A stretch of 64,000 bases of DNA from Rhizobium sp. Q54. Lineage in GTDB: Bacteria > Pseudomonadota > Alphaproteobacteria > UBA2966 > CAIVPW01. The translations under genes and the position numbers were made by a program. The notes beneath the pieces were generated by a model. It worked only from the letters and a program-made list of their open reading frames with translations, did no database searches and was not told the DNA's origin. Positions 9,036 through 49,704 of this stretch are shown here, one piece after another (position 1 is the first letter of the stretch; the number at the start of each line of letters is the position of its first letter). The stretch covers positions 22,016 to 86,015 of the forward strand of contig CAMDPO010000007.1 in assembly GCA_945904955.1 (NCBI GenBank), in the 5' to 3' direction.

Positions 9036-10867
9036 TGGACGGCCACAACGTCCTTCTCAGCGCCTTCTTCTTCCTCGCTGCGGCGGTTGCGGTGGTGCCG
9101 TTCGCGCGGCGCGGCGGCCTTGGCTCGGTGCTGGGCTATCTGCTCGCGGGCGTGTTCATCGGACCGTACGCGTTGGGACTCGTCACCAACGCCGAGGACA
9201 TCCTGCATTTCTCCGAGTTCGGCGTCGTCATGATGCTGTTCCTCGTCGGCCTCGAGCTCGAGCCCGCCAAGCTGTGGCGGCTGCGCGTACCGATCCTGGG
9301 CATGGGTGGCGCTCAGGTCGTGGGAACCGCGCTCGTCTTGGCGCTCATCGCGATCCTGCTCGGCCAGACGTGGCAGACGGGCATCGCGATCGGCATGGCG
9401 TTGTCGCTGTCATCGACCGCCATTGCCCTCCAAATCCTCAACGAGCGCCACGTCCTCGGCACCACGGCCGGGCAGTCGGCGTTCTCGGTTCTGCTGTTCC
9501 AGGACATCGCCGTCATCCCCATCCTGGCGATCCTGCCGCTGCTGGCGACCGGCCTGCTCGACGGCAGCGCCGTGGCAGCGGCGAGCGACGACGGACCTGC
9601 GTGGCTGCGCGCCCTTACGGTCATCGGCGTGGTAGCGGGCATCGTGCTGGCGGGCAGGTACGCGCTGCGCCCGGTATTCCGCTTCATTGCCGGCAGCGGC
9701 ATCCGCGAGATTTTCACCGCCACGGCACTCCTGCTGGTGGTCGGCACGGCGTTGCTGATGCAGCTGATCGGGTTGTCACCGGCCCTGGGCACGTTCTTGG
9801 CCGGCGTCGTGCTCGCCAACTCCGAGTATCGCCTGGCGCTCGAGTCCGACATCGAGCCGTTCAAGGCGCTGCTGCTCGGGCTGTTCTTCATCTCGGTCGG
9901 CATGTCGATCAATTTCGGGGTGATCGGCGATCATCCCGTGCTGATCGGCGGCCTCGTGGTCGGCATGATCGCCGTGAAGCTGGGCGTGCTGTTGGTGCTG
10001 GCGCGCGCCTTCGGCTTGCCCGGCGAGCAGAACCTTCTGTTCTCGTTCGTGCTGGCCCAAGGCGGTGAGTTCGCCTTCGTGCTGTTCCAGTTCGCCGCAG
10101 CGGAAGGCGCGCTGACCAGCGAGGTCACGGAGATGCTGGTCGTCGTCGTGGCGCTGTCGATGGCAACGACGCCGCTCCTGATGATCCTGCTCGACCGGGT
10201 GTTGCGGCGCATGCGCTCACCGGCCAACCAACGCGAGCCCGACAAGATCGAGCTCGAGGGCCACCCGGTCATCGTCATCGGCTACGGCCGCTTCGGCCAG
10301 ATCGTCGGCCGATTCCTGTCGGCGAACGGCGTCGGCATGGTCATCCTCGACAACGATCCCGACCACGTCGAGGTGCTGCGCCAGTTCGGCGTGCGCGCGT
10401 TCTACGGCGACGCCACCCGCCTCGATCTTTTGGAGCGCGCCGGCGGCGAGACCGCCAAGCTGTTCGTGGTCGCCATCGACGACAAAGAGAAGACCGTGGC
10501 GACCGTGCAGGCCATCCGCGAGCGGTTCCCCCAGGCCAAGGTGTTCGCCCGGGCGCGCAACCGCGACCACGTCTACGACCTGTGGAGCGCCGGCGCCCAC
10601 TTCACGCACCGCGAAACCTTCGATGCCGCCCTGACGATGGGCCGCGAAGCCCTGGTGGCGCTGGGCGAGCATCCCTTTGCGGCGCGGCGGCGGGCGCGCA
10701 TGTTCTCCGAGCACGACGAGAAGATGCTGGCGGACGGCTACGCCGTGCGCGACAGCGACGAGTCGTTGGTCAAGCTGTCGCGGCAGGCGCGCGAGCAACT
10801 CGAGCGCCTCGTCGCCGTCGACAAGGGCGTGACGCCCGCCGAGAAGGATCACGGCTGGGGCGACTGA
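9035..10867 (+). CDS. Monovalent cation:proton antiporter-2 (KefB/KefC-type) with TrkA-N domain
   Basis: Multi-TM Na+/H+ exchanger-like region plus C-terminal VIVIGYGRFGQIVGRFLSANGVGMVILDNDPDHVE Rossmann domain. Confidence 0.9.
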   Translation: MDGHNVLLSAFFFLAAAVAVVPFARRGGLGSVLGYLLAGVFIGPYALGLVTNAEDILHFSEFGVVMMLFLVGLELEPAKLWRLRVPILGMGGAQVVGTALVLALIAILLGQTWQTGIAIGMALSLSSTAIALQILNERHVLGTTAGQSAFSVLLFQDIAVIPILAILPLLATGLLDGSAVAAASDDGPAWLRALTVIGVVAGIVLAGRYALRPVFRFIAGSGIREIFTATALLLVVGTALLMQLIGLSPALGTFLAGVVLANSEYRLALESDIEPFKALLLGLFFISVGMSINFGVIGDHPVLIGGLVVGMIAVKLGVLLVLARAFGLPGEQNLLFSFVLAQGGEFAFVLFQFAAAEGALTSEVTEMLVVVVALSMATTPLLMILLDRVLRRMRSPANQREPDKIELEGHPVIVIGYGRFGQIVGRFLSANGVGMVILDNDPDHVEVLRQFGVRAFYGDATRLDLLERAGGETAKLFVVAIDDKEKTVATVQAIRERFPQAKVFARARNRDHVYDLWSAGAHFTHRETFDAALTMGREALVALGEHPFAARRRARMFSEHDEKMLADGYAVRDSDESLVKLSRQAREQLERLVAVDKGVTPAEKDHGWGD

Positions 10868-16943: not shown

Positions 16944-17052
16944 CTCGGATTCCCCTGGATTTCCGCGGCGTTAGGGGCGGCATCGGCCGCCCCTTGCGTC
17001 CGTGCGCCGATGCCTGTTTGATCGCCCGGCTGGGGTAGGAGCAACAGGTATC

Positions 17053-17658
17053 ATGAAGTCGTCCGACGGGTTCTTTTACGAAGGCGAAGTGTTCTATCCG
17101 TTCCAGGACATGCTGTTCAACGCGTTGCTCAGCTTCACGTTCATGTTCCTGGTCGCCTTCATGCTGATCAACCCGGTCGATCAGGACGCCAAGGTCGATC
17201 CGAAGGCCGAGTTCCTGATCACCATCAATTGGCCCGACAACCACCCCGACGACATGGACCTGTACGTACAGGATCCGCAGGGCGGCATGGTTTGGTACAA
17301 GGGCCGCGAAGCCGGCCTGATGCACCTCGATCGCGATGACCGCGGCAACTTCCGCGACGTCATCACCGTCGACGGCGTGCGCATCCAGAATCCGCTGAAC
17401 CAAGAAACCGTGTCGATGCGCGGCTACATGCAGGGCGAGTACACGGTGAACATTCACCAGTACCTGGCGCAGAACGCAGTCGACAAAGTGCCGGTGTCGG
17501 TGAAGGTCGAGAAGCTCAATCCGGTGGTGACGCTGGTCTACTACGCGACCATCGAGATGCACGACCAGATGGAGCAGACGGTCACGCGCTTCACCCTCGA
17601 CAACAACGGCGCCGTAACCGACATGAAGTTCGACCCGAAGCCCCTGGCGCGCCGCTAG
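17053..17658 (+). CDS. ExbD/MotB-like single-TM protein with DUF2135-like periplasmic beta domain (paralog of 38350..38967)
   Basis: N-terminus MKSSDGFFYEGEVFYPFQDMLFNALLSFTFMFLVAFMLINP is near-identical to the 38.9-kb protein; PDDMDLYVQDPQGGMVWYKGREAGLMHLDRDDRGNFRD. Confidence 0.7.
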   Translation: MKSSDGFFYEGEVFYPFQDMLFNALLSFTFMFLVAFMLINPVDQDAKVDPKAEFLITINWPDNHPDDMDLYVQDPQGGMVWYKGREAGLMHLDRDDRGNFRDVITVDGVRIQNPLNQETVSMRGYMQGEYTVNIHQYLAQNAVDKVPVSVKVEKLNPVVTLVYYATIEMHDQMEQTVTRFTLDNNGAVTDMKFDPKPLARR

Positions 17659-17701
17659 CGCGCCAGCAGCGCAAGTCGGGCGCGCCACCGACCGTGCGTC
17701 G

Positions 17702-18238
17702 ATGCGCGGGGGCTTTCTAGCACTCGCGCTTCTCGCCTTTTCCGCCGGGGCCGCACCCATCGCGGCCTCCGCCGATCTGGACGGCCCACCGGCGTTTCTG
17801 ATCACCGCTGTCTGGCCCGATCGCGACCCGGCCGACGTCGATCTGATCGTGCAAGACCCGCGCGACGGCATCGTCTGGTACAGGGCCCGCGAGACCGAGG
17901 TGTTGCGCCTAGATCGCGACGATCGCGGCAACTTCCGCGACCCCGAGCCCCTCAACCAAGAGATCGTCTCCGTCCGCGGTGGCCTGCCGGGCGAGTACGT
18001 GGTCAATGTCAGCCAGTACGCCCTGACGGACGTCGAGGAACCCTTGCCGGTGTTCGTGCGGGTCCAGGCGATCAGCCCGGTTGCCCTGACGGTCTACGAG
18101 AAGACCGTAGAGATGCGCCGAGTCTACGAGGTGACCGTCGTGCGCTTCGTGCTCGACGATGCCGGACGCATCACATCCTTCACCTTCGAGGACAAGCCTC
18201 TCGCCGCGGCCGCGCGGACGAAGGTGGGACTGCGGTAA
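17702..18238 (+). CDS. Secreted paralog of the DUF2135-like domain (no membrane anchor)
   Basis: Signal peptide followed by ADVDLIVQDPRDGIVWYRARETEVLRLDRDDRGNFRDPEPLNQEIVSVRGGLPGEYVVNV, which aligns with the two anchored paralogs. Confidence 0.7.
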   Translation: MRGGFLALALLAFSAGAAPIAASADLDGPPAFLITAVWPDRDPADVDLIVQDPRDGIVWYRARETEVLRLDRDDRGNFRDPEPLNQEIVSVRGGLPGEYVVNVSQYALTDVEEPLPVFVRVQAISPVALTVYEKTVEMRRVYEVTVVRFVLDDAGRITSFTFEDKPLAAAARTKVGLR

Positions 18239-19381: not shown

Positions 19382-20287
19382 TTAGTTAGCGCGTCCGATG
19401 CGCTGGATCATGCCGCGCTGCGGGTCATAGCCGATGGCAGCGAGAATGAAGCACGCCAGCGTGACGCCCACCACCACCGCCAATGCGACGGCGTTGAACT
19501 GGCCGTAGATCGCATAGCGGATCAACTCGATGACGTGGGTGAACGGATTGATCTGGGCGCCCCAGTACACGACGTCCGCACCGACCTCGCGCAGCTTCCA
19601 CAGCGGGTAGAGCGCGGGCGAGATGAAGAACATCGGGAAGATGACGAAGTTCATCGCGCCGGCAAAGTTCTCAAGCTGGCGGATGTACACCGACAGCAGC
19701 AAGCCCACCGACGACAACATCATGCCGCTGAGGAATAGCGGTCCGAGCGCGTACAGCCAACCCGACCACGGGAGCGCCGCGGTAAGGCGCGGGAAGATGA
19801 AGCTGAAGCCGTAGGTGATCAGCAGAAAGATGTACGCCTGGATCACGGCCAGGAACGTCGCGCCCAGGAGCTTGAACAACAGGATCGCCCAGCGCGGCAG
19901 CGGCGCCGTCAGCAACAGGCGCATCATGCCCATCTCGCGGTCGTAGACCATCGAGAGCGACGACTGCATGCCGTAGAAGAGCAGCACGATGCCGAGCAAG
20001 CCCGGCATGATGTACTCCTGGTACGTCACGTAGGTCTGGTACGGCGGCACGATCGAGATGCCGAGCAGGCTGCCGATGCCGGCGGCGAACACGATCAGCC
20101 ACAGCACCGGGCGGATCAACGCCGACGCCCAGCGGCCACGCTGGCGAATGAACTTGCCGATCTCGCGATTGGCGATGGCGTAGAGCGCCAGGCCCCAATG
20201 CACCATCGGCGATGCGCGCCGGGCGCGCCCGTCTTCGCCCTTGGCCGCGCCCGCCTGTGTCATCTCCGTGCTGAGTTGTGCGGTCAC
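19382..20287 (-). CDS. ABC-2 type transporter permease (PQQ-dependent alcohol dehydrogenase-associated type)
   Basis: Multi-TM ABC-2 protein (VPPYQTYVTYQEYIMPGLLGIVLLFYGMQSSLSMVYDREMGMMRLLLTAPLPRW); adjacent to binding protein and beta-propeller genes. Confidence 0.8.
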   Translation of the reverse strand: MTAQLSTEMTQAGAAKGEDGRARRASPMVHWGLALYAIANREIGKFIRQRGRWASALIRPVLWLIVFAAGIGSLLGISIVPPYQTYVTYQEYIMPGLLGIVLLFYGMQSSLSMVYDREMGMMRLLLTAPLPRWAILLFKLLGATFLAVIQAYIFLLITYGFSFIFPRLTAALPWSGWLYALGPLFLSGMMLSSVGLLLSVYIRQLENFAGAMNFVIFPMFFISPALYPLWKLREVGADVVYWGAQINPFTHVIELIRYAIYGQFNAVALAVVVGVTLACFILAAIGYDPQRGMIQRIGRAN

Positions 20288-20292
20288 GGCGC

Positions 20293-21540
20293 CTAGAACC
20301 TGCAGGTTGTCTCGGGCCGATCGGCACCGAGAGTATCAAGATCGTTGGTGGCGTGCTCGAACTTCTCCATCGGCGCGCGCGCGATGACCGCATTCGGCAG
20401 CGTCAGGAAGACGTTCATGCGCAACTGGTGGTCCCATGTGCGGAAGTCGAGCTGGCTGCCCATGTACCCGTCGAAGCGCAGCTGATCACTGAGGACGTAT
20501 TCGCGGATCTGGCGATAGTCGAGCGACTTGACGCGGCTCTGGGCGAGCGTGAGCGCACGCACCGCAGCCCATGCCGACCAATCCGGTCCGTACATGAAGC
20601 GATTGGTGGCGGTGTGGAAGCGGCTGGACAGCTGCGGCGCGCCCTGGCGCTCCCAGGTCCAGTGCCACGCTTCCGGCGTCAGGCCGGCCGCACCGACCAC
20701 GGGGCGCGCGCGCACAGTCTGATACGGGAACGTGCGCGCGAACTCGCCGTCCGTGTCGGCGATGAAGACGACGTCGTAGTCGCGATTGCCGCCGGTGAGT
20801 AGGCGCGTATTGTTGAGCTCGCGTTGGCGCGGGTCGTTGGACGGAAGGAACTTGCGCTCCTCGACCAAGCGCGCGCCGTTGCGCCGGATCGAACGCTTGA
20901 GCGCTTCGGCGACCTTGATGTCTTCGTCGAGCGGGCCCGTGAGCAGCAGAATGTTCACCCAGCCCTGGAACACCAGGTACTGCGTCACCGCGTCGGTGAG
21001 CATGTTGTAGCTCGGCGCCGTGTGGGCGAGGTTCTGCGAACAGAACGCGCCGCGCAGGCGATCGTCGGGGTTGGCGACGTTGAACAACATCACCTCCTGG
21101 CCGCGCACCGCCTGGCTGACCGCGCGCATGGTGTCGGTATCGGCGTCGATCAGGAAGAAGTTGACGCCCTGGTCCGCGCGGGCCTTTTCGATCCAGGCGA
21201 CCAAGGCGGCGGCATTGGCGCCGCTGTGGCGGATCATCTCGAAGGACTGCCCGGAGAAGCGGCCGGTCTGGTTCGACTCGTCGATGCCAAGCTGGGCGCC
21301 CGGGAAGGGCTGATAGCGCGCGACGGACGGTATGCGTACGCGCTCGCGGCCTGGCTGCGTGAGCGCATAGACGAACTCGCGGTCGTAGCGCGGGTCATTT
21401 TCGATGTCGACATAGCCGATCTTGAACAACGACGGCGCGGCCGGCGTCGCCGCGGGCGCGACGCCTTGTTGTGCCCACGCAGCGCTGGCGCCGAACGCCA
21501 GCAGGAACGCTGCGCCGATAGTAGCGATCAGGCGGTTCAT
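20293..21540 (-). CDS. Periplasmic substrate-binding protein of a PQQ-dependent-catabolism-type ABC system
   Basis: Signal peptide; KIGYVDIENDPRYDREFVYALTQPGRERVRIPSVARYQPFPGAQLGIDESNQTGRF...GAFCSQNLAHTAPSYNMLTDAVTQYLVFQGW. Confidence 0.75.
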   Translation of the reverse strand: MNRLIATIGAAFLLAFGASAAWAQQGVAPAATPAAPSLFKIGYVDIENDPRYDREFVYALTQPGRERVRIPSVARYQPFPGAQLGIDESNQTGRFSGQSFEMIRHSGANAAALVAWIEKARADQGVNFFLIDADTDTMRAVSQAVRGQEVMLFNVANPDDRLRGAFCSQNLAHTAPSYNMLTDAVTQYLVFQGWVNILLLTGPLDEDIKVAEALKRSIRRNGARLVEERKFLPSNDPRQRELNNTRLLTGGNRDYDVVFIADTDGEFARTFPYQTVRARPVVGAAGLTPEAWHWTWERQGAPQLSSRFHTATNRFMYGPDWSAWAAVRALTLAQSRVKSLDYRQIREYVLSDQLRFDGYMGSQLDFRTWDHQLRMNVFLTLPNAVIARAPMEKFEHATNDLDTLGADRPETTCRF

Positions 21541-21561: not shown

Positions 21562-22602
21562 TCAGTTGCCGACGGGTGCCCAGCCAATGCGGTCGTTGAC
21601 CAGCGGCGTGTACGGCACGCGACCCGTGGGGACCGACTTCTGCACGCGCTTCGACGCAATATCGACGATCGACAAGTCGTCCGAGAGGCAGTTGGCAACC
21701 AATGCGGTCTTCTCATCGGACGTGAACGTGATGCCCCACGGGCGCGAGCCGACCAGGATGTACTGGTCGATCTTGCGCGTCGCCACGTCGACGACGGCGA
21801 CATGATTGGCGCGGCCCAGGGTGACCCACACCTTTTTGCCGTCGCTGGTCATCTCGAGGCCGACCGGCGTGACGTCGACCTGGCGGAAGCCCGGTGGCAG
21901 GAAGTTGATGACGTCGGTCACCTTGTAGCTGGCGACATCGACGATGTAGACCTCACCGGACAGCTCGCAGGTGATCCACAACTCCTTCTGGTCGGGCGTG
22001 ATGCGCATGCGGCGCGGACGCGTGCCGACGACGACGTTGTCGAGGATGATGCCGCGCGCCACGTCGACCTTGTGGATCATGTCGGCGACTTCCGACGTCA
22101 GGTAGACGGTCTTGCCGTCGGGCACGACGAGCACACCCTCCGGCTCGGCGCCCGAGGGCACCTCGTGCAGCAGCACCTTGTCCTCGATGCTGATGATCCA
22201 CATCGAGGAGTCTTCCTCGTTGGCGATGAACATCGTCTTTTCGTCGGGACTGATGGTCAGCACCTCGGGACTCGGACCCGTCGGGATGGCATCGACGACC
22301 GTCTCTTTGGCGACGTCGATGATGTCGACCACGTCCTCATCGCCGCACGCGACGTAGAGCAGCGTGTGCGCCGGGTTGAACACCATGCCGCGCGGACGGC
22401 GCGAGGTCTTGATGCGCTTGACCACCTGGAAGCTGGTGCCATCGAGCACGGTCAGCTCGTGCGACTTTTCGTGGCTGATGTAGATACGGCCGGTGCCGAC
22501 TGCCTGCGCGCCATTGGCGACCGGCATGCCGGCGAGGGCTGCGCCTGCGGCGCCCGCCTTGAGCAAGCCGCGGCGATTGGGGGTCCAGAAAGAGTTGGTC
22601 AT
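21562..22602 (-). CDS. YVTN-type beta-propeller protein (PQQ-dependent catabolism-associated type)
   Basis: Repeated blades such as GRIYISHEKSHELTVLDGTSFQVVKRIKTSRRPRGMVFNPAHTLLYVACGDEDVVDIIDVAKETVVDAIPTGPSPEVLTISPDEKTMFIAN. Confidence 0.85.
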   Translation of the reverse strand: MTNSFWTPNRRGLLKAGAAGAALAGMPVANGAQAVGTGRIYISHEKSHELTVLDGTSFQVVKRIKTSRRPRGMVFNPAHTLLYVACGDEDVVDIIDVAKETVVDAIPTGPSPEVLTISPDEKTMFIANEEDSSMWIISIEDKVLLHEVPSGAEPEGVLVVPDGKTVYLTSEVADMIHKVDVARGIILDNVVVGTRPRRMRITPDQKELWITCELSGEVYIVDVASYKVTDVINFLPPGFRQVDVTPVGLEMTSDGKKVWVTLGRANHVAVVDVATRKIDQYILVGSRPWGITFTSDEKTALVANCLSDDLSIVDIASKRVQKSVPTGRVPYTPLVNDRIGWAPVGN

Positions 22603-22670: not shown

Positions 22671-23096
22671 TTAGCGGACGATGAACTTGCCCTTCATGCC
22701 GCGGCCCTCATGGCCGGGCACATAGAAGTCGTAGTCGCCCGGACGGATGGGCACGAACCAGACCTGCAGCAGCCCCGGGCCGTCGAACTCGACTTGATAG
22801 GGGGCGCCGGCCATATGGACCTCGATGTCGCCGACCTTGAACTCGTTGATCCACGAGTTGCGCCATAGCTCGGGCGCTGCAACGGCGAACTCTTCGCCGT
22901 CGGCGGCCATAGTGATGTCCCAGCGGTAATACTTCCCTGTCTCGAGCGTGTACTCGTAGTTGGACATCGTCAGGTCCGACTTGAGCGTCAGTTCAAGAGC
23001 GACGGGGCGGGATGCGAGATTGCCGGCCGAAAGCGCCGGTGGCGCGGTCGCCAAGAAGAGCGCAAGCGCAGCTCCGGATAGAAGTGCCTTTTTCAC
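22671..23096 (-). CDS. Cupredoxin-fold secreted protein (Cys ligand missing)
   Basis: Signal peptide; LLQVWFVPIRPGDYDFYVPGHEGRGMKGKFIVR resembles the C-x-PGH-xxx-GM cupredoxin C-terminus with Val in the Cys position. GTG start. Confidence 0.65.
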   Translation of the reverse strand: MKKALLSGAALALFLATAPPALSAGNLASRPVALELTLKSDLTMSNYEYTLETGKYYRWDITMAADGEEFAVAAPELWRNSWINEFKVGDIEVHMAGAPYQVEFDGPGLLQVWFVPIRPGDYDFYVPGHEGRGMKGKFIVR

Positions 23097-23177
23097 GGTG
23101 TACCTCCCAGTCCCCGTGGTGGCCGCAGGACCAAGGGCGTCCATCCGGCCGGTCGCGTTTTCCGATCCCCTCACTAG

Positions 23178-23192
23178 GCAAGGCTCGTGCCA
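23178..23192 (-). promoter_or_regulatory. Sigma54 (-24/-12) promoter
   Basis: Minus strand TGGCACGAGCCTTGC: consensus TGGCAC-N5-TTGC, ~80 bp upstream of the 22671..23096 gene. Confidence 0.8.
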
Positions 23193-23200
23193 CGAAAAGA

Positions 23201-23224
23201 ACCACCAATTCGTACAACCACCAA
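23201..23224. promoter_or_regulatory. Tandem ACCACCAA elements (candidate activator half-sites)
   Basis: ACCACCAA at 23201-23208 and 23217-23224, just upstream of the sigma54 promoter. Confidence 0.4.
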
Positions 23225-23282
23225 GGCGGATTCTGTGGCTCGGGCACCCAATGTTGGTCGATGACCATCGAAATCGCAAAAG

Positions 23283-23327
23283 AAAGGCCGGCTTGGTGGC
23301 TACTCACAACCACCAGCCGGCCTTTTC
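23283..23327 (-). terminator. Rho-independent terminator of the 23349..23765 gene; also contains TTGGTGG/ACAACCACCA
   Basis: AAAGGCCGGCTTGGTGG-ctactcacaa-CCACCAGCCGGCCTTTT; U-rich tract on the minus-strand transcript. Confidence 0.7.
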
Positions 23328-23348
23328 GAACGTGTGTGCGCGGTGGCG

Positions 23349-23765
23349 CTACTTGACGGTGATGGTCCCCGTCATCGTGCCTTCCTGGCCGAGCACGTAG
23401 TACTTGAACGAGCCGATGCGGACCGGGACCAGCTGAATGCGGATCGTGCCGGCCGCGTCGAACTCGAGGAAACGCAGGCCGGACGGCTTGATCTCTTTGC
23501 CGTCGACGACGACCTGGAAGATGTACGAGTTGCCGAACAGGTCCGGAGCATGGAACTGCATCTCGGTGGTGCCGATCTGGGTGATGTCGAGGTTGTAGCC
23601 CTTGCCGGTCTCCATCTCGATGGCGGTGGTGGAGAACTTCTTGTCGGCGGTCATGTCGATCTTGATGGTCGTCGCGCCGGTGGTCAGGTTGCCGGCAGCG
23701 CCGGCCGAACCGGCCACGCCGAGCGCCACCAAGCTGGCGGCGGCGAGAGTACGAACAAGCTTCAT
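23349..23765 (-). CDS. Second cupredoxin-fold secreted protein (Cu ligands further eroded)
   Basis: Signal peptide; IRIQLVPVRIGSFKYYVLGQEGTMTGTITVK parallels the 22671 protein with Cys->Val and His->Gln. Confidence 0.6.
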   Translation of the reverse strand: MKLVRTLAAASLVALGVAGSAGAAGNLTTGATTIKIDMTADKKFSTTAIEMETGKGYNLDITQIGTTEMQFHAPDLFGNSYIFQVVVDGKEIKPSGLRFLEFDAAGTIRIQLVPVRIGSFKYYVLGQEGTMTGTITVK

Positions 23766-23858
23766 TGGAGCCTCCCTAGTCGTGAATTGGCGCACCGCGC
23801 CCTGGAACAAAACCGCGGGACCCCGCGTCCCGATCAGTGATTCCTAAGGCGGCCATTG

Positions 23859-23873
23859 GCAAGGCCTATGCCA
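23859..23873 (-). promoter_or_regulatory. Sigma54 (-24/-12) promoter
   Basis: Minus strand TGGCATAGGCCTTGC, ~95 bp upstream of the 23349..23765 gene. Confidence 0.75.
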
Positions 23874-23952
23874 GACCCCAGAACGGCGAAAATTCGCAGT
23901 TTTGTGCCTAAGCCCGCTGACCCCTGGGCGGTCGCAGCGATGGCGAATCGCC

Positions 23953-23978
23953 AATGGTGGTTGTCTACAACCACCATT
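23953..23978. promoter_or_regulatory. Perfect palindrome, candidate enhancer-binding-protein UAS
   Basis: AATGGTGGTTGT-CT-ACAACCACCATT, 12-bp perfect arms, ~80-120 bp upstream of the 23859 sigma54 promoter. Confidence 0.6.
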
Positions 23979-23997: not shown

Positions 23998-24261
23998 CTA
24001 GCGCGCCTGTCCGAGGGCCCGGAAACCGCGTTGCAGTGAGGACCGGCAGCGATCCCAAAGGCCGAAATCGGCCGCGCCGTCGGCGAAGTCGAGCTGGTTT
24101 TCCGCTACGGTCTGGGCGTTGATGCCGCCCGGCCAGTTGGCGATGGCGGCCTCGAGTTGGTCGATGCCGCTGCGGCAGGCGCGCTCGTCGGCGCGTTCGC
24201 TTGCGCCGGCACAGGCCGCAAGAGTTAGACAGGTGGCCACGCAAACGGACCAGCCGCGCAC
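23998..24261 (-). CDS. Small putative lipoprotein
   Basis: MRGWSVCVATCLTLAACAGAS with lipobox LAAC; 87 aa. Confidence 0.55.
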   Translation of the reverse strand: MRGWSVCVATCLTLAACAGASERADERACRSGIDQLEAAIANWPGGINAQTVAENQLDFADGAADFGLWDRCRSSLQRGFRALGQAR

Positions 24262-24270
24262 GGCCGCCGG

Positions 24271-25740
24271 TTACTCGCCGAAGTCCGCAGCGCGAATGCC
24301 GTACTTCTCCATGCGGTAGCGCAGCGCCATGCGCGTCACGCCGAGACGGCGCGCCGCTTCGGAGGTGTTGCCGCTGGTTTCCTTGAGAGCGGCGACGATC
24401 ATGGTGCGCTCGGCGCCGGCAAGCGTGCTGACGCCGTCGTCCGCGCCCAGCATGGGCGCCGCAGTCCGGGCAGCGACGGTGTTGCGATTCGGCGTGACGT
24501 TGGCGAGGTTGAGCGAGTCGGCCGTAAGGCCATCCTCGCCAGACAGCAGCGCGCTCCGCTCGATGACATTCTTCAGCTCGCGCACGTTGCCCGGCCACGA
24601 GTAGGCCTTCAGCGCCTCCACCGCATCGTCCTGCAAGGTCGGTGTCGCACGGCCGTAGGAGCGCGCCGTCGCCTCGAGAAAATGGCGCGCCAGCATCGGA
24701 ATGTCCTCGCGGCAGGACCGCAGCGGCGGCAGCGCGATGGTCAGCACGTTCAGGCGGTAGAAGAGGTCGTCGCGGAACTCGCCGCGCGCCACCATCTGGG
24801 CGAGATCGCGATTGGTGGCAGCGATGAACCGCGCCGCCACGGGTACTTCGCGGGTACTGCCGACCCGGCGGACCAAGCGGCGCTCCAGCACGTTGAGGAG
24901 CTTGGCCTGCAGCTCCGGCGGCAACTCGCCGATCTCGTCGAGGAACACGGTGCCGTCCTCGGCAGCCTCGATCAGTCCGGCGCGCGAGATATGCGCGCTG
25001 GTGAAGGCGCCGCGCACGTGGCCGAAGAGCTCGGCCTCCATGATGTCCTTGGGAAGAGACGCGCAGTCGACATGCACGAAGGGCCGGTCGGCGCGCGGCG
25101 ACAGGCGGTGCAGGAGGCGCGCGGTGACGTCCTTGCCGGTACCCGTCTCGCCGAGCAGCAGCACCGTCGGCGACGCATCGCCGGAGATCGTGGCGATCGT
25201 CTGAATCTGCTTGCGCGTCTCGCGCATCGCGGCGCTGTTGCCGAGCAGCGACGCCACGTCAGCCGAGCGGCTCTCGCGGGCGCGCGAGTAGTTGAGGCGC
25301 GAGCGCAGGCGGGCCGAGCGCATCACCTTGTCCAAGGTGACGAGGAGCTCGTCGAGATCGACCGGTTTCTTGAGATAGTCGGCGGCGCCGAGCTTCATGG
25401 CGCGGACCGCCTGGCTGACGTCGCCGTAGGCGGTGACGACGATGACCGTCGGCGCCGCGTCGCCCATTTCGGCGAGCGTGGCGAGGAAGTCGAAGCCTTC
25501 GCCATCGGGCAGGCGCATGTCGAGGATGATCAGGTCGGGCGGCTTGGCCGCGGTCGACGCCACGTGCTTGGTGGCCTCAGCGAGCGTGCCGGCTACCGAG
25601 CACGTGTGCCCGGCGCGCTGCAGGCAGGTCGCGACGGCGCGCGCGAACATGGTCTCGTCCTCGACGACGAGGATGCGCCAGGACTGCGCCGAGCGGGGGC
25701 TCGGGCCGGCGTCGTCGAGCTTGCGCGCGGGTTCGCTCAT
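24271..25740 (-). CDS. Sigma54-dependent response regulator (REC-AAA+-Fis)
   Basis: REC (ILVVEDETMFARAV...DLIILDMRLPDGEG), AAA+ (LLLGETGTGKDVTARLLHRLS, FLDEIGELPPELQAKLL), C-terminal Fis HTH (SEAARRLGVTRMALRYRMEKYG). Central loop reads RGAFTSA. Confidence 0.93.
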   Translation of the reverse strand: MSEPARKLDDAGPSPRSAQSWRILVVEDETMFARAVATCLQRAGHTCSVAGTLAEATKHVASTAAKPPDLIILDMRLPDGEGFDFLATLAEMGDAAPTVIVVTAYGDVSQAVRAMKLGAADYLKKPVDLDELLVTLDKVMRSARLRSRLNYSRARESRSADVASLLGNSAAMRETRKQIQTIATISGDASPTVLLLGETGTGKDVTARLLHRLSPRADRPFVHVDCASLPKDIMEAELFGHVRGAFTSAHISRAGLIEAAEDGTVFLDEIGELPPELQAKLLNVLERRLVRRVGSTREVPVAARFIAATNRDLAQMVARGEFRDDLFYRLNVLTIALPPLRSCREDIPMLARHFLEATARSYGRATPTLQDDAVEALKAYSWPGNVRELKNVIERSALLSGEDGLTADSLNLANVTPNRNTVAARTAAPMLGADDGVSTLAGAERTMIVAALKETSGNTSEAARRLGVTRMALRYRMEKYGIRAADFGE

Positions 25741-27221
25741 GCGCTCCTAGCGACGGTGGCATGCGCGGACTGCGCCGCCGGTAACGTTACGATGACTTCG
25801 GTGCCCCCGCCTTCGCGGGCGGCGAACTCAAGCATGCCTTGGTGCAGGCCGCAAATCTTGAATGCGAACGGAATGCCGAGGCCACTGCCGTAGCTCTTGG
25901 TCGTCGGTCCCGGATGCAGGTCGCCCTGCATCGGCCGGAACGGCATGCCAGGGCCGCGATCGGAGATGACCATCTGCACGTTCGCTCCGGCCGCGCGCAC
26001 GGTCAGGGTGATCGGCGCGCTGTCGGGCGATGCCTCGACGGCGTTGCCGAGCAGCCCGTAGACCGCCTGCTCCATCAGATGCACGTCGATGGAAGCGACC
26101 GCGGGCACGTCCCACCCGACGCGACGCAGGCGGATCTGCTTGGCCTCCAGGCGCGGCGCCAGGAACATGACCGCCTGGTCGACGATCTCCGAGAGGCGCA
26201 CCTCGGCGCGCGCGAGGCGCAAGGGGTTCAGATACGACAGCAGCGCACTCAACCAGCGCTCGAGGCGATCGACGGTAGCGCGGATGTCCTTCAGCCCCTG
26301 CACGACTTCGCGCGGCGTGCCGGGTCCCTCGTGGACCTGGGCGGTAGCGCGGATGGCCGCGAGCGGGTTGCGGATGTTGTGCGCGACCACCGGCACCAAG
26401 GCGCCCAACGCAGCCTGGCGCTCGGCGCTCACCAGCGCCTCGCGACTCTGGGCGAGCTCCTGTGCCATGCGGTTGACCGCACGCTCCAACGTGACGAGCT
26501 CGGTCACACCGTGCTCGGGCACCTTGTGGTCGAGCTGACCCTTGGCATAGGCATCGAACGCGTCGAGGAGCGAGCCGATCGGTCGCACGAAGGCGCGTTG
26601 CACGAACGAACGCGAGAACAACAGCAGGATCGCCGCGAGGGCGATGGGAATGAGCAGCACCAAGCCGGAGATGCGGCTGAGAGCGTCAACGCGCACCTTC
26701 TCTGCTGCCTGCGCCACCGTGAGCAGCTCGTCGTTGAGGGCGAAGACCAGCTCGTAGTCGTCGAGCCAGACCATGCGCAGGTCGGCGGTGAAGAATACCG
26801 CCAGTTGGTCGGCCTGGCGCACGGCGGTCGACGGCGTCGACATGATCTGGTCGGTGCGGCGGCGCACGGTCTGGTACGCCTCCTTGAGGCCGTCGATGGC
26901 GGTGCGCTCGGCGGGCAGGCGGGCGACGTCCTCCATGTGGGCGAACGTCGACAGGATGCGGGCGCTGGTGCGGCGATAGTCGGTGACGGCGCCGACCTCG
27001 CCGAGGAAGTGATGGTCGAACACCTCGGTCATCTGGCGGTAGACGTCGCCGCGCGTCTCCTGCACGAGGCTCATCAACGTATTGAGGCGCAAGGATTCTT
27101 CAGAGGCGCGCTGACGCAACTCGACGCCCACCCAGCCCATCGCGCCTGTGACGATGATGAGCAGCAGGAACGCCAGGTTGTGACCCAGCAGCAGGCCACG
27201 CAGGGAATAAATACGGATCAC
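25737..27221 (-). CDS. Membrane sensor histidine kinase with HAMP domain
   Basis: Two TM segments, HAMP region, H-box ALVPVVAHNIRNPLAAIRATAQ, ATPase region NAVEASPDSAPITL...SDRGPGMP...YGSGLGIPFAFKIC; 4-bp overlap with the RR. Confidence 0.9.
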   Translation of the reverse strand: MIRIYSLRGLLLGHNLAFLLLIIVTGAMGWVGVELRQRASEESLRLNTLMSLVQETRGDVYRQMTEVFDHHFLGEVGAVTDYRRTSARILSTFAHMEDVARLPAERTAIDGLKEAYQTVRRRTDQIMSTPSTAVRQADQLAVFFTADLRMVWLDDYELVFALNDELLTVAQAAEKVRVDALSRISGLVLLIPIALAAILLLFSRSFVQRAFVRPIGSLLDAFDAYAKGQLDHKVPEHGVTELVTLERAVNRMAQELAQSREALVSAERQAALGALVPVVAHNIRNPLAAIRATAQVHEGPGTPREVVQGLKDIRATVDRLERWLSALLSYLNPLRLARAEVRLSEIVDQAVMFLAPRLEAKQIRLRRVGWDVPAVASIDVHLMEQAVYGLLGNAVEASPDSAPITLTVRAAGANVQMVISDRGPGMPFRPMQGDLHPGPTTKSYGSGLGIPFAFKICGLHQGMLEFAAREGGGTEVIVTLPAAQSAHATVARSA

Positions 27222-27324: not shown

Positions 27325-28133
<809 letters not shown>

Positions 28134-31760: not shown

Positions 31761-33011
31761 TTAGGCCCACATCTTCAGGGTGTTGAACTTCGTGCCGCTG
31801 AGGACCTTCTCGGATTCCTTGTAGCCAAGGAACTCCTCGATGAGGGTCGCGTACACGCGGCGGAAGTCGGTGGTGTACTGCAGGTTGTCGTCCAGCACGA
31901 GGTTGGTGAGCGACATCTTCTCGCCGTAGATGCCACCCTTGACGCCGCCGCCGACGATGAACGCAACGTTGCCTGCGCCGTGGTCGGTGCCGAGGCTCGT
32001 GTTCTCCGGAACGCGCCGGCCGAACTCCGAGTGGATCAGCATGGCAACGTCGTTCTCCTTACCCATGCGCTTCATCTCTTGATAGAAGCCCCACACGGCG
32101 TCGGAGTTGTACTGCACCTGGCGGTCGTGCGGGCTCTGCTGGTTGACGTGGGTGTCGAACAAGCTGCCACGCAGCGGCACGTAGTAGATGCGCGCCGGGA
32201 AGTCGCCTTCGATCAGCGCAGCGACGCGGTCGAGGTCGCGCAGGTTGAGGTCCGGGTTGCGCGTGCGGCCGTACTTGGCCCACGCCTCACCGACCAACGC
32301 GGAGGCATCACGAGCGCTCTTGGTGACGTCCAAGAGGTACTTGTGGGTGTCGCCGACGGCGACCTGGTCCTTGTCGATGTTCTGCAGGACCGCGCGCTGC
32401 TGGTAGTAGAAGTCGCGCGCGAAGGTGTTCGGATCCATGAACACCACCGGCACGTGCTTGTTGGCGCGCACCGCCAGCGTCTGGCTGGTCGATACGTTGA
32501 CGAGGAAGTTCGCCTTGCCGGTCGGCTCGATGGCGTCGGCGGTGCGGGCGACCCAACCGAACGGCTCGCCCGAATTCGGCGCGCCGGTGTGCCAGTAGCT
32601 GATCGACGAGAAGTGCGAGAACGACGGCTGCTCATAGCCGACGCCCTGGACGATGCCGAGCTTGCCCTCGTCCCACAGGCGCTTGAAGCCAACCATCGAC
32701 TTCTGCAGGCCGTGCATGCCATCGCCGAGCGGCAGCGTGTCCTTCTCCTTGTAGGCGAGGGTCGGGCGCTGACGGTACAGAGCGTCGTCACCGTACGGCA
32801 CGACCGTCGAGAGACCGTCGTAGCCGCCGAACCACTCGAACACGACCAGGATCTTGCCCGGCGTGGCAGCGACGGCTTCCGCCATGCCACCGAACACGGG
32901 CGGCAGCGGAGCGAGACCGGCGCCGAGGCTAAAGCCGACGCCACCAGCCCCGATCGCCAGTGCCTGCCGGCGAGAGACGCCAGCATCACAGCAAAGATTG
33001 TTCATACGCAT
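31761..33011 (-). CDS. DUF1501 domain-containing protein (Tat-type signal)
   Basis: SRRQALAIGAGGVGFSLGAGL; VVFEWFGGYDGLSTVVPYGDDALYRQRPTLA; SEFGRRVPENTSLGTDHGAGNVAFIVGGGVKGG. Confidence 0.88.
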   Translation of the reverse strand: MRMNNLCCDAGVSRRQALAIGAGGVGFSLGAGLAPLPPVFGGMAEAVAATPGKILVVFEWFGGYDGLSTVVPYGDDALYRQRPTLAYKEKDTLPLGDGMHGLQKSMVGFKRLWDEGKLGIVQGVGYEQPSFSHFSSISYWHTGAPNSGEPFGWVARTADAIEPTGKANFLVNVSTSQTLAVRANKHVPVVFMDPNTFARDFYYQQRAVLQNIDKDQVAVGDTHKYLLDVTKSARDASALVGEAWAKYGRTRNPDLNLRDLDRVAALIEGDFPARIYYVPLRGSLFDTHVNQQSPHDRQVQYNSDAVWGFYQEMKRMGKENDVAMLIHSEFGRRVPENTSLGTDHGAGNVAFIVGGGVKGGIYGEKMSLTNLVLDDNLQYTTDFRRVYATLIEEFLGYKESEKVLSGTKFNTLKMWA

Positions 33012-33038
33012 TGTTGAATCCTCTTCTGGGCTGGGTCG

Positions 33039-34892
33039 CTAGTTGATCTGGTATTCCGGCGTGCTCATGATCATGTGCGTGAGCATGCGCAGCGGGCTTT
33101 CCATGTAGGTCGTCGCCCGACTGATGTCCTTGGTGCCGAGCTCGGTGTTCAGGAACGCGACCATCGATCCACGCGTTGTGCTCGACACGGGGATGCGCAG
33201 GAAGCGGCCCATCAGGTAATCGACCGCCTCATCGGTGGTCTTCACGCCGGCGTCCACGACCATCTTGCTGAGGTCGACGCGCGCAGCGCCACGCGGCGTC
33301 GGGATCAGCTTGCGATAGGCGAGCTCCCACGCGTAGTAGCCGGAGACGCGGGTGTTGAAGAGCTCATCGCGCTCCTTCGCCACCATGTCGAAGGCGCCCA
33401 TCATGCCGGGGTCGGCAAGCGCAGTGGCCTGGGTAAAGTCCTGGCCCTGGCGCAGGCGCGCACCGATCTGGCCGTCACCACCGGTAGCGGTCAGCAGGTT
33501 CGGGGCACGGAAGCCGGAGATGTCCGGGAACAGGAAGTCGCGCGCGACGTTGCCGCGTTCCAGGATCAGCGCCGGGGTCACCCACGACTTGCCCTGGGCC
33601 CAGCCAGCCACGGACGGCGGGTTGAGCAGGTGCTGGCCGAGAGCGACGGTGATGCTGTTGAAGTCCGGGATGCCGGGAACGTCTTCGGCGCCCAGCTGCT
33701 TCAGCATGGTAACGACGTGCTCGACGGGGCCCTTGATGTGCGAGCCGTACGAGGCCGCGCTGTAGAAGTCCTTCGACAGGAACATTGCCTGCAGCAGCGG
33801 CTTCATCTCGTAGTTGCTGTCGCGCAGGATCTTGCCGAGCTGGGCCTGATACTCCGGCGACAGATCGTCGCGCACGAAGAAGCGATAGGTCTTGCCCGCG
33901 ATGTAATTCGCGGTGACCGGCTGCTCCATGATGATCTTGAGCACGTCGACGCCGTTGAAGTTGCCGGTACGGCCAAGGAACGTCTTCACGCCGTCGTCGT
34001 GCTTGTCCTTGTCGACGACGAAGTCGAGGTTGTCGAAGTTCCAGCCGGTGAAGGCGCGGGCGGCTTCGCGGACGTCCTTCTCGATGTAGTTGCCGACGCC
34101 CATGGTGAAGAGCTCCATCACCTCACGAGCGAAGTTCTCGTTGGCGGCGCCCTTAACGTTCACGCCAGCGTCGAGGTAGTAGAGCATCGCCGGGTTCTGG
34201 GCGACGGCGACGGCCAGCTGCGAGAAGTTGCCGGTGGCGTACTTCTCGAACATGTCGATCTGCTGAACCATCTTGCGATAGTCGCGGACCTTGCCCTCGG
34301 CAGTGGCGAAGTGGCCGTGCCAGAACAGCGCCATCTTCTCTTCGAGCGGGTGCGAGGTGTCGAGCATGCGCTCGGCCCACCAGTAGCCGACGCGACGGGT
34401 CTCGAGGTCGGTGGCGCGCAGCCAGAAGAAGAAGCGATCGGACGTCGGCTGGACGGCGCGGTTGCCTTCCGGCTTGTTCATCACGCCGATGTTGCCGCCG
34501 TCCTTGAGCGCCTTGTCGGTCGCCGCCGGGCGGCTGTCCGGGAAGTAGGTCAGGGACGGGTCCCAGAAGCCCGACTCTTCGAACGGCTTGAGCTTCGGGT
34601 TCGGGGTGGTCTCGTAAAAGACCAGCGAGCGGACGGCGCGGTCCGGAGTCATCGCGGCGAGGCGCGCGATCTCTTCCGGGGTGCCGCTGAAGCCGGCGCG
34701 CGACAACAGGTGCGCTGCGCGGTCGTAATTCCAGTCGGCCGCGGTGATGGGCGACATGTCGCCCTTCCAGTTGGCCGGACCCGGGCTGAACGCGCCCAGT
34801 CCCGCTGGACCGGCGGACATCGCCGCTCCGGTCACGGCGATGGCCATGGCCGCCCCCGCGAGGGCGGCAATGCCGCGCTTGCGAATCGTCAT
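33039..34892 (-). CDS. DUF1800 domain-containing protein
   Basis: AAHLLSRAGFSGTPEEIARLAAMTPDRAV...RMLDTSHPLEEKMALFWHGHFATA...NENFAREVMELFTMGVGNYIEKDVREAARAFTGWNF. Confidence 0.88.
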   Translation of the reverse strand: MTIRKRGIAALAGAAMAIAVTGAAMSAGPAGLGAFSPGPANWKGDMSPITAADWNYDRAAHLLSRAGFSGTPEEIARLAAMTPDRAVRSLVFYETTPNPKLKPFEESGFWDPSLTYFPDSRPAATDKALKDGGNIGVMNKPEGNRAVQPTSDRFFFWLRATDLETRRVGYWWAERMLDTSHPLEEKMALFWHGHFATAEGKVRDYRKMVQQIDMFEKYATGNFSQLAVAVAQNPAMLYYLDAGVNVKGAANENFAREVMELFTMGVGNYIEKDVREAARAFTGWNFDNLDFVVDKDKHDDGVKTFLGRTGNFNGVDVLKIIMEQPVTANYIAGKTYRFFVRDDLSPEYQAQLGKILRDSNYEMKPLLQAMFLSKDFYSAASYGSHIKGPVEHVVTMLKQLGAEDVPGIPDFNSITVALGQHLLNPPSVAGWAQGKSWVTPALILERGNVARDFLFPDISGFRAPNLLTATGGDGQIGARLRQGQDFTQATALADPGMMGAFDMVAKERDELFNTRVSGYYAWELAYRKLIPTPRGAARVDLSKMVVDAGVKTTDEAVDYLMGRFLRIPVSSTTRGSMVAFLNTELGTKDISRATTYMESPLRMLTHMIMSTPEYQIN

Positions 34893-35055
34893 AGTGAGGT
34901 ACCTCCCAGAAAATTCTGTGGCCGGAATGTGCTTGGGCTCGGGGAGGGGTTTCACCTATACGAAGCATAGGCCTGGAAAGCCGCCGCTGGGGCCGGACTC
35001 CGGGCGGTTGCGGCCGGGCCGGCGGTCGGCCGATTCCGCTGAAAAGCTGCCTATT

Positions 35056-37116
35056 TCACGCCGCAGGAGCGTTGATTAGCTCGACGCGGGCCTGGCGCCG
35101 CTTGGCTCTTTGGACCAGGGGCGGGCAGACGGCTTCGTCGTGGTAGGCGACCTGGCAGTCGAGGCACTGCAGGCACTCGTTCATGTCGATGGCGCCCGTT
35201 GGCGCGATCGCGCCAACCGGGCAGTGCGTCTCGCAGATGCGGCACTCCGACCCGCATTGGGACCGCCGTCGCAGCCACCGCACCATGCGCAGGCGCCCCA
35301 TCACGGCGAGGGACGCGCCCAGGGGACACAGGAAGCGACAATAGAAGCGCTCGACGAACAGGCCGATCAGCAATAGCCCCGCCGCATAGAGCACGTAGGG
35401 TGCCTCGCGCGCGAACTTGACGCTGATGGCAATCTTGAATGGTTCGACCTCGGCCGCGCTGTGCGACAGCGCCGGCGCGACGAACACCAGCACGATGATG
35501 ACGATGGCAACGAGGTACTTCACGGCCCACAGCCGCTCGTGCACCGCGCGCGGGACGCGCACCTGCGGCACGCGCAGTGCGGTGGCGACGCGGTTGGACA
35601 GCTCCTGCAGCGCGCCGAACGGGCACAGCCAGCCGCAATAGACGCCCCGCCCGACCAGCAGCAGCGTGAGACCGGTGTAGGCGCACAGCACCAATACAAT
35701 CGGATCGAGCAGCAAGGTCGAGAGCGGCGTGCCGGTGAACGGCGCCTGCAAGAACGCGAGGACGTTGACGACGGACAACTGCCCGCCGGCCCACCAGCCA
35801 AGCCAGACGAGCGTCACGGTCAGGACGGCAACGCGCGTCCAGGCGTAGACGGCCGGCCGCCGCACGAGCGCATCCTGGAACACGAACACGGCGGTGACCG
35901 CCGCCAGGAGCGCCAGCAGAATGACGATGTCGGTGCGCTTGTGCTGCCACGCCTCGACCCACGCCGGGGGCGGTTCGGGCGGCGGCAGGAGAATGTGTTC
36001 GGCGGGCAGCGTGTAGGGGACGCTGAACGGCACCGACAGAGCGGCGCCGTTCGCTGTGCGGCCGGCGACATCCACGACCAGCCGCCACGGCGACAAGGAA
36101 TCGATCCCGGCGGACGGCGGCAGGAAGACGAGCGCCGCGTCGAGTTCGTCGAGCTCGGCACCGCCGCCGACGGCGCGCAGGGCGCGCAACATGGACGGCA
36201 CAATGCGCACGGTGGTGCCGCCCTGGACGATCGACACGACTTCCTCAAAGAACCCGGTCGGCAGCCGAGCGCGCTCGGTGCTGGCGTACGGATACTGGCC
36301 GACGCTGGCGATCCAGACGGTGAGTCCGCCCTCGCCCTGGCGATCCATCGCCTCGTTGAAACGCTGAAGGCCGACGATGTTGGCGCCGATCGCCGGCGGC
36401 GTCAGCAGCGCCACGGAGATGTCGAGAAACGGCGCCGCCGAGTCGCGGGGTTCGTGCACCGGCGCGCCACCAACCCCTGCAAACGCGCGCACGACGTCGG
36501 CGTAGGACGCGCGCAGCGTGATGAGCGCGCCGCTGCGGCGCAGCTCGTCGGTGCTGGCCGTGGCGACGCGGGCGCGATCGAGGGTGGGCACGAGCACGTC
36601 GGCCTTCGGCAGGCGTTCGGAAGAGACGACCCGCGCCGCCGACTGCATGCCGCTCTTCATGAGACGCGCGCTGGTCGTCGCGCCCTTGACCTGGTCGGGG
36701 CGCACGGCGCGCCAATCGTTGAGGGTTGCCGCCGCGAACCCAGCAATGAAGGTCTCCATCACCCCGCGGCTGACGCCGCGGTTCAAGATCGACTCGTGCT
36801 CCTCGAGCAGCGCCGCGCCGGTGATGCGCCCATCCAGCGCGATGCCACCGATGAGATCGAAGGCCGTGCCGGAATATCCGGTGGCATTGACGGTGTCGCG
36901 CGTCGAGAAGATGTAGCCCGCCAGTGCACCGCCGATGCGCACCGGCAAAGCAGGCGGTGTTCCTTCCGCGTCACCGACGTCTTCGGCGCCGGGAAATACT
37001 TGCTCGATCAGCGCCGGTGTCAGGCGCGCGCGCAGACCACCGATGTCAGCGGCACGCGCCGGCGACACCGCGGCGAGCAGCAGCAACGCAACGAGCAGTG
37101 CGCGGCGACGAAACAT
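35056..37116 (-). CDS. NosR/NirI-like membrane protein: FMN-binding domain, TM core, 4Fe-4S ferredoxin domain
   Basis: Candidate flavinylation motif VKGATTSARLM; CGWLCPFGALQELSNRVA; CRFLCPLGA; CRICETHCPVGAI...CLQCLDCQVAYHDEAVCPP. Confidence 0.85.
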   Translation of the reverse strand: MFRRRALLVALLLLAAVSPARAADIGGLRARLTPALIEQVFPGAEDVGDAEGTPPALPVRIGGALAGYIFSTRDTVNATGYSGTAFDLIGGIALDGRITGAALLEEHESILNRGVSRGVMETFIAGFAAATLNDWRAVRPDQVKGATTSARLMKSGMQSAARVVSSERLPKADVLVPTLDRARVATASTDELRRSGALITLRASYADVVRAFAGVGGAPVHEPRDSAAPFLDISVALLTPPAIGANIVGLQRFNEAMDRQGEGGLTVWIASVGQYPYASTERARLPTGFFEEVVSIVQGGTTVRIVPSMLRALRAVGGGAELDELDAALVFLPPSAGIDSLSPWRLVVDVAGRTANGAALSVPFSVPYTLPAEHILLPPPEPPPAWVEAWQHKRTDIVILLALLAAVTAVFVFQDALVRRPAVYAWTRVAVLTVTLVWLGWWAGGQLSVVNVLAFLQAPFTGTPLSTLLLDPIVLVLCAYTGLTLLLVGRGVYCGWLCPFGALQELSNRVATALRVPQVRVPRAVHERLWAVKYLVAIVIIVLVFVAPALSHSAAEVEPFKIAISVKFAREAPYVLYAAGLLLIGLFVERFYCRFLCPLGASLAVMGRLRMVRWLRRRSQCGSECRICETHCPVGAIAPTGAIDMNECLQCLDCQVAYHDEAVCPPLVQRAKRRQARVELINAPAA

Positions 37117-37151
37117 GGCGTCCCCTTTCCGCGCAGAGTAGCGTAGCCGCC

Positions 37152-37571
37152 ATGCGAAGGCTGACTTTGCCGCTGGCGGCGGCCGCAGCGGCGTGGCTCT
37201 CCGGCGCGACGGTACCGTCCGCGCAGTTCTTTGGCATGGATCCGGGCGAAGTCCTGTTCGGCGAATGCCGCGACTGCCACAACTTTGCGGAAGGTGCGGG
37301 GCCGGGGCGCAAGGCGCCAAATCTGTGGGGCGTCTTTGGCCGCACCGCCGGAACCGTGCCGGGCTGGGACTACACGCCGGAGCTCAAGGGCTCCGGCATC
37401 GTGTGGACCGAGACGACCATGGACAAGTGGTTGCGCAATCCGGGCGCCGTGGTGCCAGGCACCAAGATGGACTTCCAGGTGCCGAACGACGAGCAGCGCG
37501 AACTCGTGCTCGAGTACATCCGGAACGCCGACCTGGCGGGCTACGTGCGCGCCATTCAGGGCTTGAAGTAA
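37152..37571 (+). CDS. Class I c-type cytochrome
   Basis: Signal peptide; GECRDCHNFAEGAGPGRKAPNLWGVFGRTAG...VPGTKMDFQV; divergent from the NosR-like gene. Confidence 0.92.
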   Translation: MRRLTLPLAAAAAAWLSGATVPSAQFFGMDPGEVLFGECRDCHNFAEGAGPGRKAPNLWGVFGRTAGTVPGWDYTPELKGSGIVWTETTMDKWLRNPGAVVPGTKMDFQVPNDEQRELVLEYIRNADLAGYVRAIQGLK

Positions 37572-49580: not shown

Positions 49581-49660
49581 CCCTACCTGCGCGACTGGCG
49601 AGACTGGATGGAATGACCATCGGGGAGCGCAGGTAAACCACCCGCCGATCGCCTGGGCGC
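49581..49660 (+). ncRNA. ZTP (pfl-motif) riboswitch upstream of folD
   Basis: P1 ACCTGCGC (49585-49592) / GCGCAGGT (49627-49634); conserved CGACTGGCG...TGGATGGAATGACCATCGGGGAGCG and downstream CGCCTGGGC. Confidence 0.85.
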
Positions 49661-49704
49661 CGAGACCAAGTCTCGGACGGACACCTTCCCTAAGGGAGTC
49701 GCCC

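Follow-up and report, generated by a model that had tools for sequence, protein, structure and literature searches.

PedA1A2BC of P. putida is a lanthanide importer, the import function being deduced from mutants (PMC6839425). It consists of a substrate-binding protein, a beta-propeller, an ATPase and a permease of the families TIGR03863, TIGR03866, TIGR03864 and TIGR03861. In Pseudomonas a ped-type cluster is linked to the lanthanide switch PedS2/PedR2 (ExaDE), a two-component system whose regulator PedR2 is LuxR-type (PMC12997753). Oxidation of C1 compounds can also come under sigma54, as MmoR and sigma54 control the soluble methane monooxygenase; MmoR is described as close to GAF-domain activators, with phosphorylation uncertain (PMC5874634). 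A literature search found no paper that assigns a sigma54 activator to lanthanide transport or sigma54 control to XoxF or lanthanide genes. The locus described here carries the same four PedA1A2BC families, and adds cupredoxin-like genes devoid of copper ligands, a second divergent set near PQQ dehydrogenases, and predicted sigma54 control. Here too a ped-type cluster goes with a two-component system, but in contrast to the LuxR-type PedR2 the regulator is an NtrC-type sigma54 activator. With MmoR it would have in common the sigma54 control of a C1-oxidation pathway, although the enzyme system differs.

The region is, in all likelihood, an enhancer-dependent sigma54 regulon made up of a kinase and response regulator, a palindrome, and targets at promoters P1, P2 and C37, as judged from its sequence. 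It lies in a window of 64,000 nucleotides (contig C7:22016-86015) taken from G000, an alphaproteobacterial MAG of 2.38 Mb in 64 contigs, and is compared with seven relatives (G001-G007) comprising four congeners and three other genera of the same family. Domains and families were called with Pfam and NCBIfam/TIGR profiles at curated cut-offs, and AlphaFold2 and Foldseek were used for structure. Motifs were counted genome-wide, each against a reversed-pattern control. Distances between palindrome and promoter run from the palindrome centre to the T of TGG in the -24 box.

Table 1. Genes and DNA elements of the predicted regulon, in window coordinates
Feature	Position	Strand	Evidence or remark
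ABC permease TIGR03861, PedC-like	19382..20287	-	323.5 bits, cut-off 241.35
ABC substrate-binding protein TIGR03863, PedA1-like	20293..21540	-	403.1 bits, just below cut-off 413.6
Beta-propeller TIGR03866, PedA2-like	21562..22602	-	305.9 bits, cut-off 287.3
cup1, second of the cupredoxin-like proteins, predicted secreted; Val at Cys position of ligand loop FYVPGHEGRGMKG	22671..23096	-	alignment, synteny
P1 putative start-site/leader element (CTAGTGAGGGGATCGGAAAACGCGACCGG)	23149..23177	-	
P1 predicted -24/-12 promoter TGGCACGAGCCTTGC	23178..23192	-	one of 19 genome-wide sites
Two direct half-sites (AGAACCACCA, ACAACCACCA) beside P1 -24 box	23198..23223	.	at least one copy in G004 and G002
Predicted dual element, terminator-like hairpin stem after cup2; inner stem 23293-23315 is the P1 palindrome	23286..23322	-	folding; centre 112.5 bp from P1 -24 T
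cup2, predicted secreted protein of cupredoxin fold without Cys/His copper ligands, 138 aa	23349..23765	-	AlphaFold2, Foldseek, alignment
P2 putative start-site/leader element (CAATGGCCGCCTTAGGAATCACTGATCGGG), divergent copy of CTAT-N6-TATTGG-AAAA-GSCAAT	23829..23858	-	
P2 predicted -24/-12 promoter TGGCATAGGCCTTGC	23859..23873	-	conserved in relatives
P2 putative upstream activator site, perfect palindrome AATGGTGGTTGT-CT-ACAACCACCATT	23953..23978	.	centre 92.5 bp from -24 T
Small ORF, 87 aa, between regulator and cup2	23998..24261	-	orthologue in some relatives only
NtrC-type response regulator, proposed activator: receiver, AAA+ sigma54-interaction, Fis-type HTH	24271..25740	-	Pfam
Sensor histidine kinase: two TM segments, HAMP, HisKA, HATPase_c	25737..27221	-	Pfam, hydropathy
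ABC ATPase TIGR03864, PedB-like, upstream of kinase gene, start approximate	27325..28059	-	324.8 bits, cut-off 302.25

An initial annotation had read 24271..27221 as a sigma54-type response regulator with its kinase, and the Pfam domains bear this out. The regulator has matches above cut-off to PF00072, PF00158 and PF02954, the domain set of the NtrC family. It resembles the group I regulators NtrC, AtoC and ZraR in this receiver-AAA+-Fis HTH order, in the adjacent kinase and in a palindrome ~60-115 bp upstream of -24/-12 promoters, and differs from them in its own motif, its own targets and a sigma54-contact loop that reads GAFTSA instead of GAFTGA. The loop is kept in relatives, and NorR with the equivalent Ser substitution is still active (PMC2941729). 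The best NCBIfam match is AtoC (391 bits against a cut-off of 714); scores so far under the cut-offs indicate that the protein is none of the named regulators. Its orthologues are 76-88% identical in the four congeners and 67-75% in the three other genera, and all six family orthologues examined have the same recognition helix, TRMALRYR. The kinase gene overlaps the regulator gene by 4 bp, the pair is conserved, and phosphotransfer between the two proteins is predicted. Kinase orthologues with 65-93% identity lie directly upstream of the regulator gene in six relatives. Hydropathy windows above 1.6 start at kinase residues 6-18 and 178-190, with a probable periplasmic stretch at ~30-178.

The palindrome TGGTGGTTGT-N2-ACAACCACCA with up to three mismatches occurs at three places in the 2.38 Mb genome (23955-23976, 23294-23315 and C37:9258-9279) and at none in the reversed control. 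The identical three places are recovered genome-wide by the core GGTGGYT-N6-ARCCACC with at most one mismatch, against two control matches. The promoter pattern TGGCAY-N5-TTGC has 19 sites compared with 7 in the reversed control, and each of the three palindromes stands upstream of one of the 19, at distances of 92.5, 112.5 and 91.5 bp. The genome holds -24/-12 promoters together with rpoN, and the targets have a conserved upstream activator site in common. All elements listed in the initial annotation are found where it placed them, namely TGGCACGAGCCTTGC, TGGCATAGGCCTTGC, two copies of ACCACCAA, the TTGGTGG/ACAACCACCA pair at 23293-23315 and the palindrome at 23953-23978. The ACCACCAA copies form tandem half-sites at 23201 and 23217 beside the P1 -24 box and are conserved only in part. 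The earlier picture of a regulon with two promoters holds for both of these, but not in its number: a third predicted promoter lies on contig C37 and, in relatives, another precedes a cold-shock-domain gene.

The C37 site is the one addition made by the genome-wide palindrome scan that had been proposed, and it lies, unlinked, at a functionally related gene. The palindrome is followed by the -24/-12 sequence TGGCACGCTGCTTGC at 9360, ahead of a paralogue of the TIGR03866 beta-propeller. Its neighbours are a MoxJ-type protein, PedA1A2BC-related ABC genes, whose transporter proteins score under the curated Ped-family cut-offs, and methanol/ethanol-family PQQ dehydrogenases in tandem. The WDxD motif, which marks lanthanide-type dehydrogenases, is present in these PQQ enzymes. 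Upstream of the C37 PQQ dehydrogenase genes no strict sigma54 site was detected. Being unlinked and having the same spacing, the C37 site is the strongest independent support for the predicted regulon. NosR-like membrane proteins (~500 bits, under the NosR cut-off) are encoded both in the window (35059-37320) and in the C37 cluster (L004:5525-7738).

Conservation of the motifs in orthologous loci, on which the initial annotation had staked its proposal, is seen in congeners and other genera alike. Regulator, kinase, target genes and the pair of palindrome and -24/-12 promoter recur in the seven relatives with lineage-specific losses. The order kinase-regulator-cup2-cup1-propeller-substrate-binding protein-permease is kept, except that G005 yielded only a single cupredoxin-like gene and that the pieces lie on different contigs in G006. 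The P2 palindrome is present in 7/7 relatives (weaker in G005, with one mismatch in G006 and a 5-bp spacer in G002) and recurs with its -24/-12 promoter. At P1 the combination recurs in G002, G004, G006 and G007, and at the propeller promoter in G001, G002, G004 and G007. P1 is not universal: in G001 the search upstream of cup1 turned up no -24/-12 site. In G001 and G002 a cold-shock-domain gene is preceded by the palindrome with a sigma54 site, and a similar pair is seen in G006; the corresponding sigma54 promoter of the source genome keeps only a degenerate palindrome copy.

A composite pattern, in which the palindrome is followed after 55-85 bp by the -24/-12 sequence, has six matches in three of 387 alphaproteobacterial genomes, all at predicted promoters. 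Mere coincidence of GGTGG/CCACC-rich words with sigma54-like strings in a G+C-rich genome could draw on the one-mismatch core, which also matches the reversed control, and on a TGGCAY-N5-TTGC background of ~7 per genome. Its probability is nevertheless negligible: the three palindromes are perfect or nearly so and share one geometry, orthologous promoters in other genera carry them, and the composite pattern is absent from the reversed control across all 387 genomes. Chance is contradicted by this conservation. The 20 palindrome-promoter distances of the regulon span 60.5-114.5 bp in steps of ~10.5 bp (Rayleigh R 0.78, the genomes being related), and after merging of related distances n is 10 and R 0.71 (p 0.005 by simulation); these phasing statistics are indicative only because kinship of the genomes inflates them. 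Spacing in helical steps fits a protein on a fixed DNA face relative to the promoter.

More distant homologues of the regulator (54-56% identical; Methylohalomonas, Ferrovaceae-like and other loci, L038-L044) have no similar palindrome with a sigma54 site in those loci, and extension of the motif to them was dropped on this ground. Three of these kinase-regulator contigs contain a conserved sigma54-like site, TGGCACGATAAATGCT (L038:7396-7510, L042:3365-3480 and L043:8535-8650). On its 3′ side lie ~100 nt of conserved intergenic sequence with a CCTCCTATTGTGGAT core and then GCCGGATTC...GAATCCGGCTTTTTTT, a candidate for a sigma54-driven small RNA that has no Rfam match.

The P1 palindrome has a second aspect. 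The TTGGTGG/ACAACCACCA pair, listed among the promoter elements in the initial annotation, at the same time makes up the inner stem of a hairpin that resembles a terminator. On the minus strand this hairpin (23286-23322) reads GGCCGGC-TGGTGGTTGT...AGCCACCA-AGCCGGCC, followed by a T-rich stretch, and it lies ~27 bp past the cup2 stop codon. Its folding energy is -33 to -34 kcal/mol with a z of -4.9. A G+C-rich hairpin, a U tract and a position after a stop codon are the marks of an intrinsic terminator, and the structure is predicted to be one. Transcription termination by RNA hairpins at gene ends might accordingly be the sole role of the palindromes, as the C37 copy in G000 also lies just past a gene, that of a substrate-binding protein. 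Against this, no U tract follows the palindrome at 23953-23978 or that on C37, and the letters GGTGGYT/ARCCACC are the same in all places and genera. Their distance to the -24 box moves in helical steps, and terminators need neither a fixed sequence nor a promoter spacing. Termination in place of activation is therefore very unlikely. For 23293-23315 a role as terminator only was rejected, as other genera keep the activator consensus and the in-phase P1 distance while the outer arms change. Hairpin and T tract are found together in G000, G002 and G004. G006 and G007 have an extended hairpin without the T tract and retain the inner GGTGGYT...ARCCACC with different outer arms, so that the inner letters must be constrained beyond pairing. 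In G000, G002 and G004 one stretch of DNA appears to hold both the activator site and the terminator for the gene before it. The regulon promoters match no Rfam family.

Binding of the palindrome by a protein other than the adjacent regulator has also to be weighed. One candidate is RR2, a paralogous NtrC-type regulator (C9:33695-35116) that is 67% identical to the first and has the same TRMALRYR helix; another would be a non-sigma54 activator or a repressor, and the half-sites beside the P1 -24 box would suit the position of a repressor. RR2 has its own sigma54 promoter with wider-spaced inverted arms, TGGTGG-N16-CCACCA. This arrangement was not counted as a member of the regulon, the spacing being 6 bp over that of the standard site. 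RR2 was found in the source genome only among the eight family genomes, whereas palindrome and adjacent regulator co-occur in relatives. Moreover, sigma54 promoters require an activator, and the adjacent regulator is the conserved one. A different binding protein is thus improbable, if somewhat less so than the terminator reading; RR2 could nonetheless share the palindrome sites. Neighbourhood and co-conservation make the adjacent regulator the most likely partner of the palindrome. Two more sigma54 sites follow RR2 (C9:33604-36000, equal to L171:4492-6900), the second of which precedes a gene judged from its sequence to be TonB-dependent-receptor-like.

Many regulon promoters share a further element directly 3′ of the -12 box, CTAT-N6-TATTGG-AAAA-GSCAAT (the TATTGGAAAA element), which the other sigma54 promoters of the genome lack. 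With two mismatches allowed, TATTGGAAAAGSCAATNGG matches the eight genomes five times, each time at a promoter of the regulon, whereas the control yields no match. Copies within the window itself depart from the consensus. By its position the element would cover the predicted start site and the leader. Promoters of the cold-shock genes have the palindrome without the start-site element, which shows that the two are separable. A simple alternative explanation for the element is that the promoters descend from a common ancestor. An RNA hairpin is not claimed, as ATTGG/CCAAT pairs by eye in some promoters and not in others.

Two groups of genes lie around the kinase and regulator genes. The first comprises the two cupredoxin-like genes named in the initial annotation, a description that is borne out for the fold, by model in cup2 (pLDDT 78; best Foldseek match to cupredoxins E 2.7e-6) and by alignment in cup1, and that fails for the type-1 copper ligands. 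The proteins share with cupredoxins (Cupredoxin_1, plastocyanin) the predicted fold and a weak profile match, that of cup1 to TIGR02656 lying below cut-off, but they are without Cys and other type-1 copper ligands. In the Cys-His-Met ligand loop Cys is absent from 4/4 aligned proteins and His from 3/4. A loop without Cys means that cup1 and cup2 are not ordinary blue-copper carriers. The second group is of the PedA1A2BC type, with TIGR03861, TIGR03863, TIGR03864 and TIGR03866 together in the window, three above cut-off and TIGR03863 just below. Since kinase, regulator, the two cupredoxin-like genes and the PedA2-, PedA1- and PedC-like genes are syntenic, the regulon most likely controls two PedA1A2BC-type sets. 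The gene neighbourhood of the regulator suggests PQQ/lanthanide-dependent oxidation of alcohols. Also near the cluster, a DUF1501 protein adjoins one that is DUF1800-like by sequence judgement (window 31761-34955). Two tandem paralogous proteins of 218 and 178 aa, the first without a Pfam match, are encoded at window 17002-18238, and a ZMP/ZTP riboswitch (RF01750, 67.6 bits; window 49581-49665) lies upstream of a folD-like gene.

In the proposed mechanism the membrane sensor kinase would phosphorylate the NtrC-type regulator, a dimer of which would bind TGGTGGYTg-N4-cARCCACCA ~60-115 bp upstream of the -24/-12 promoters. The bound regulator would drive open-complex formation by RNA polymerase-sigma54, from the same DNA face at most targets. 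P2 would serve cup2, and P1 would serve cup1 and probably the collinear PedA2-PedA1-PedC-like genes, its activator site being built into the stem of the hairpin 3′ of cup2. The C37 promoter would serve the beta-propeller and probably the downstream ABC ATPase and permease, and in relatives the cold-shock-domain gene would be a further target. The regulon would probably tune PedA1A2BC-type transport, along with periplasmic helper proteins, to the supply of alcohol or lanthanide. Motifs, their geometry and conservation, the gene families and the hairpin-forming sequence are observed; binding by this regulator, start sites, operon extent, phosphorylation, signal and transported substrate we infer from sequence.

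The mechanism itself, enhancer-dependent sigma54 transcription, is ordinary; the regulator, its motif and its targets are new. The proposal of the initial annotation that all three could be read off the DNA stands with an enlarged target set. It is extended by these wider targets, by a probable connection with lanthanide-type transport, and by the start-site and dual P1 elements. A more far-reaching picture would make the NtrC-type system the master regulator of PedA1A2BC-like transport in the family, acting at a three-part promoter composed of phased palindrome, -24/-12 sequence and a start-site element that is read by a second factor or acts in the leader RNA, with the P1 activator site formed by the DNA of the preceding terminator. 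In this full form it is speculative and rather doubtful. Two compact features, the P1 enhancer merged with a terminator-like hairpin and the start-site element, lend themselves to direct tests by mutation. A single step here yields proposals for the regulator, motif, promoters and targets of an uncultured family, along with a few DNA sites at which they can be tested. PedR2 is the only lanthanide-responsive two-component regulator found in the literature search, and the regulator described here is of another type. The genes that it would control resemble a rare-earth-metal importer serving the oxidation of methanol and alcohols.
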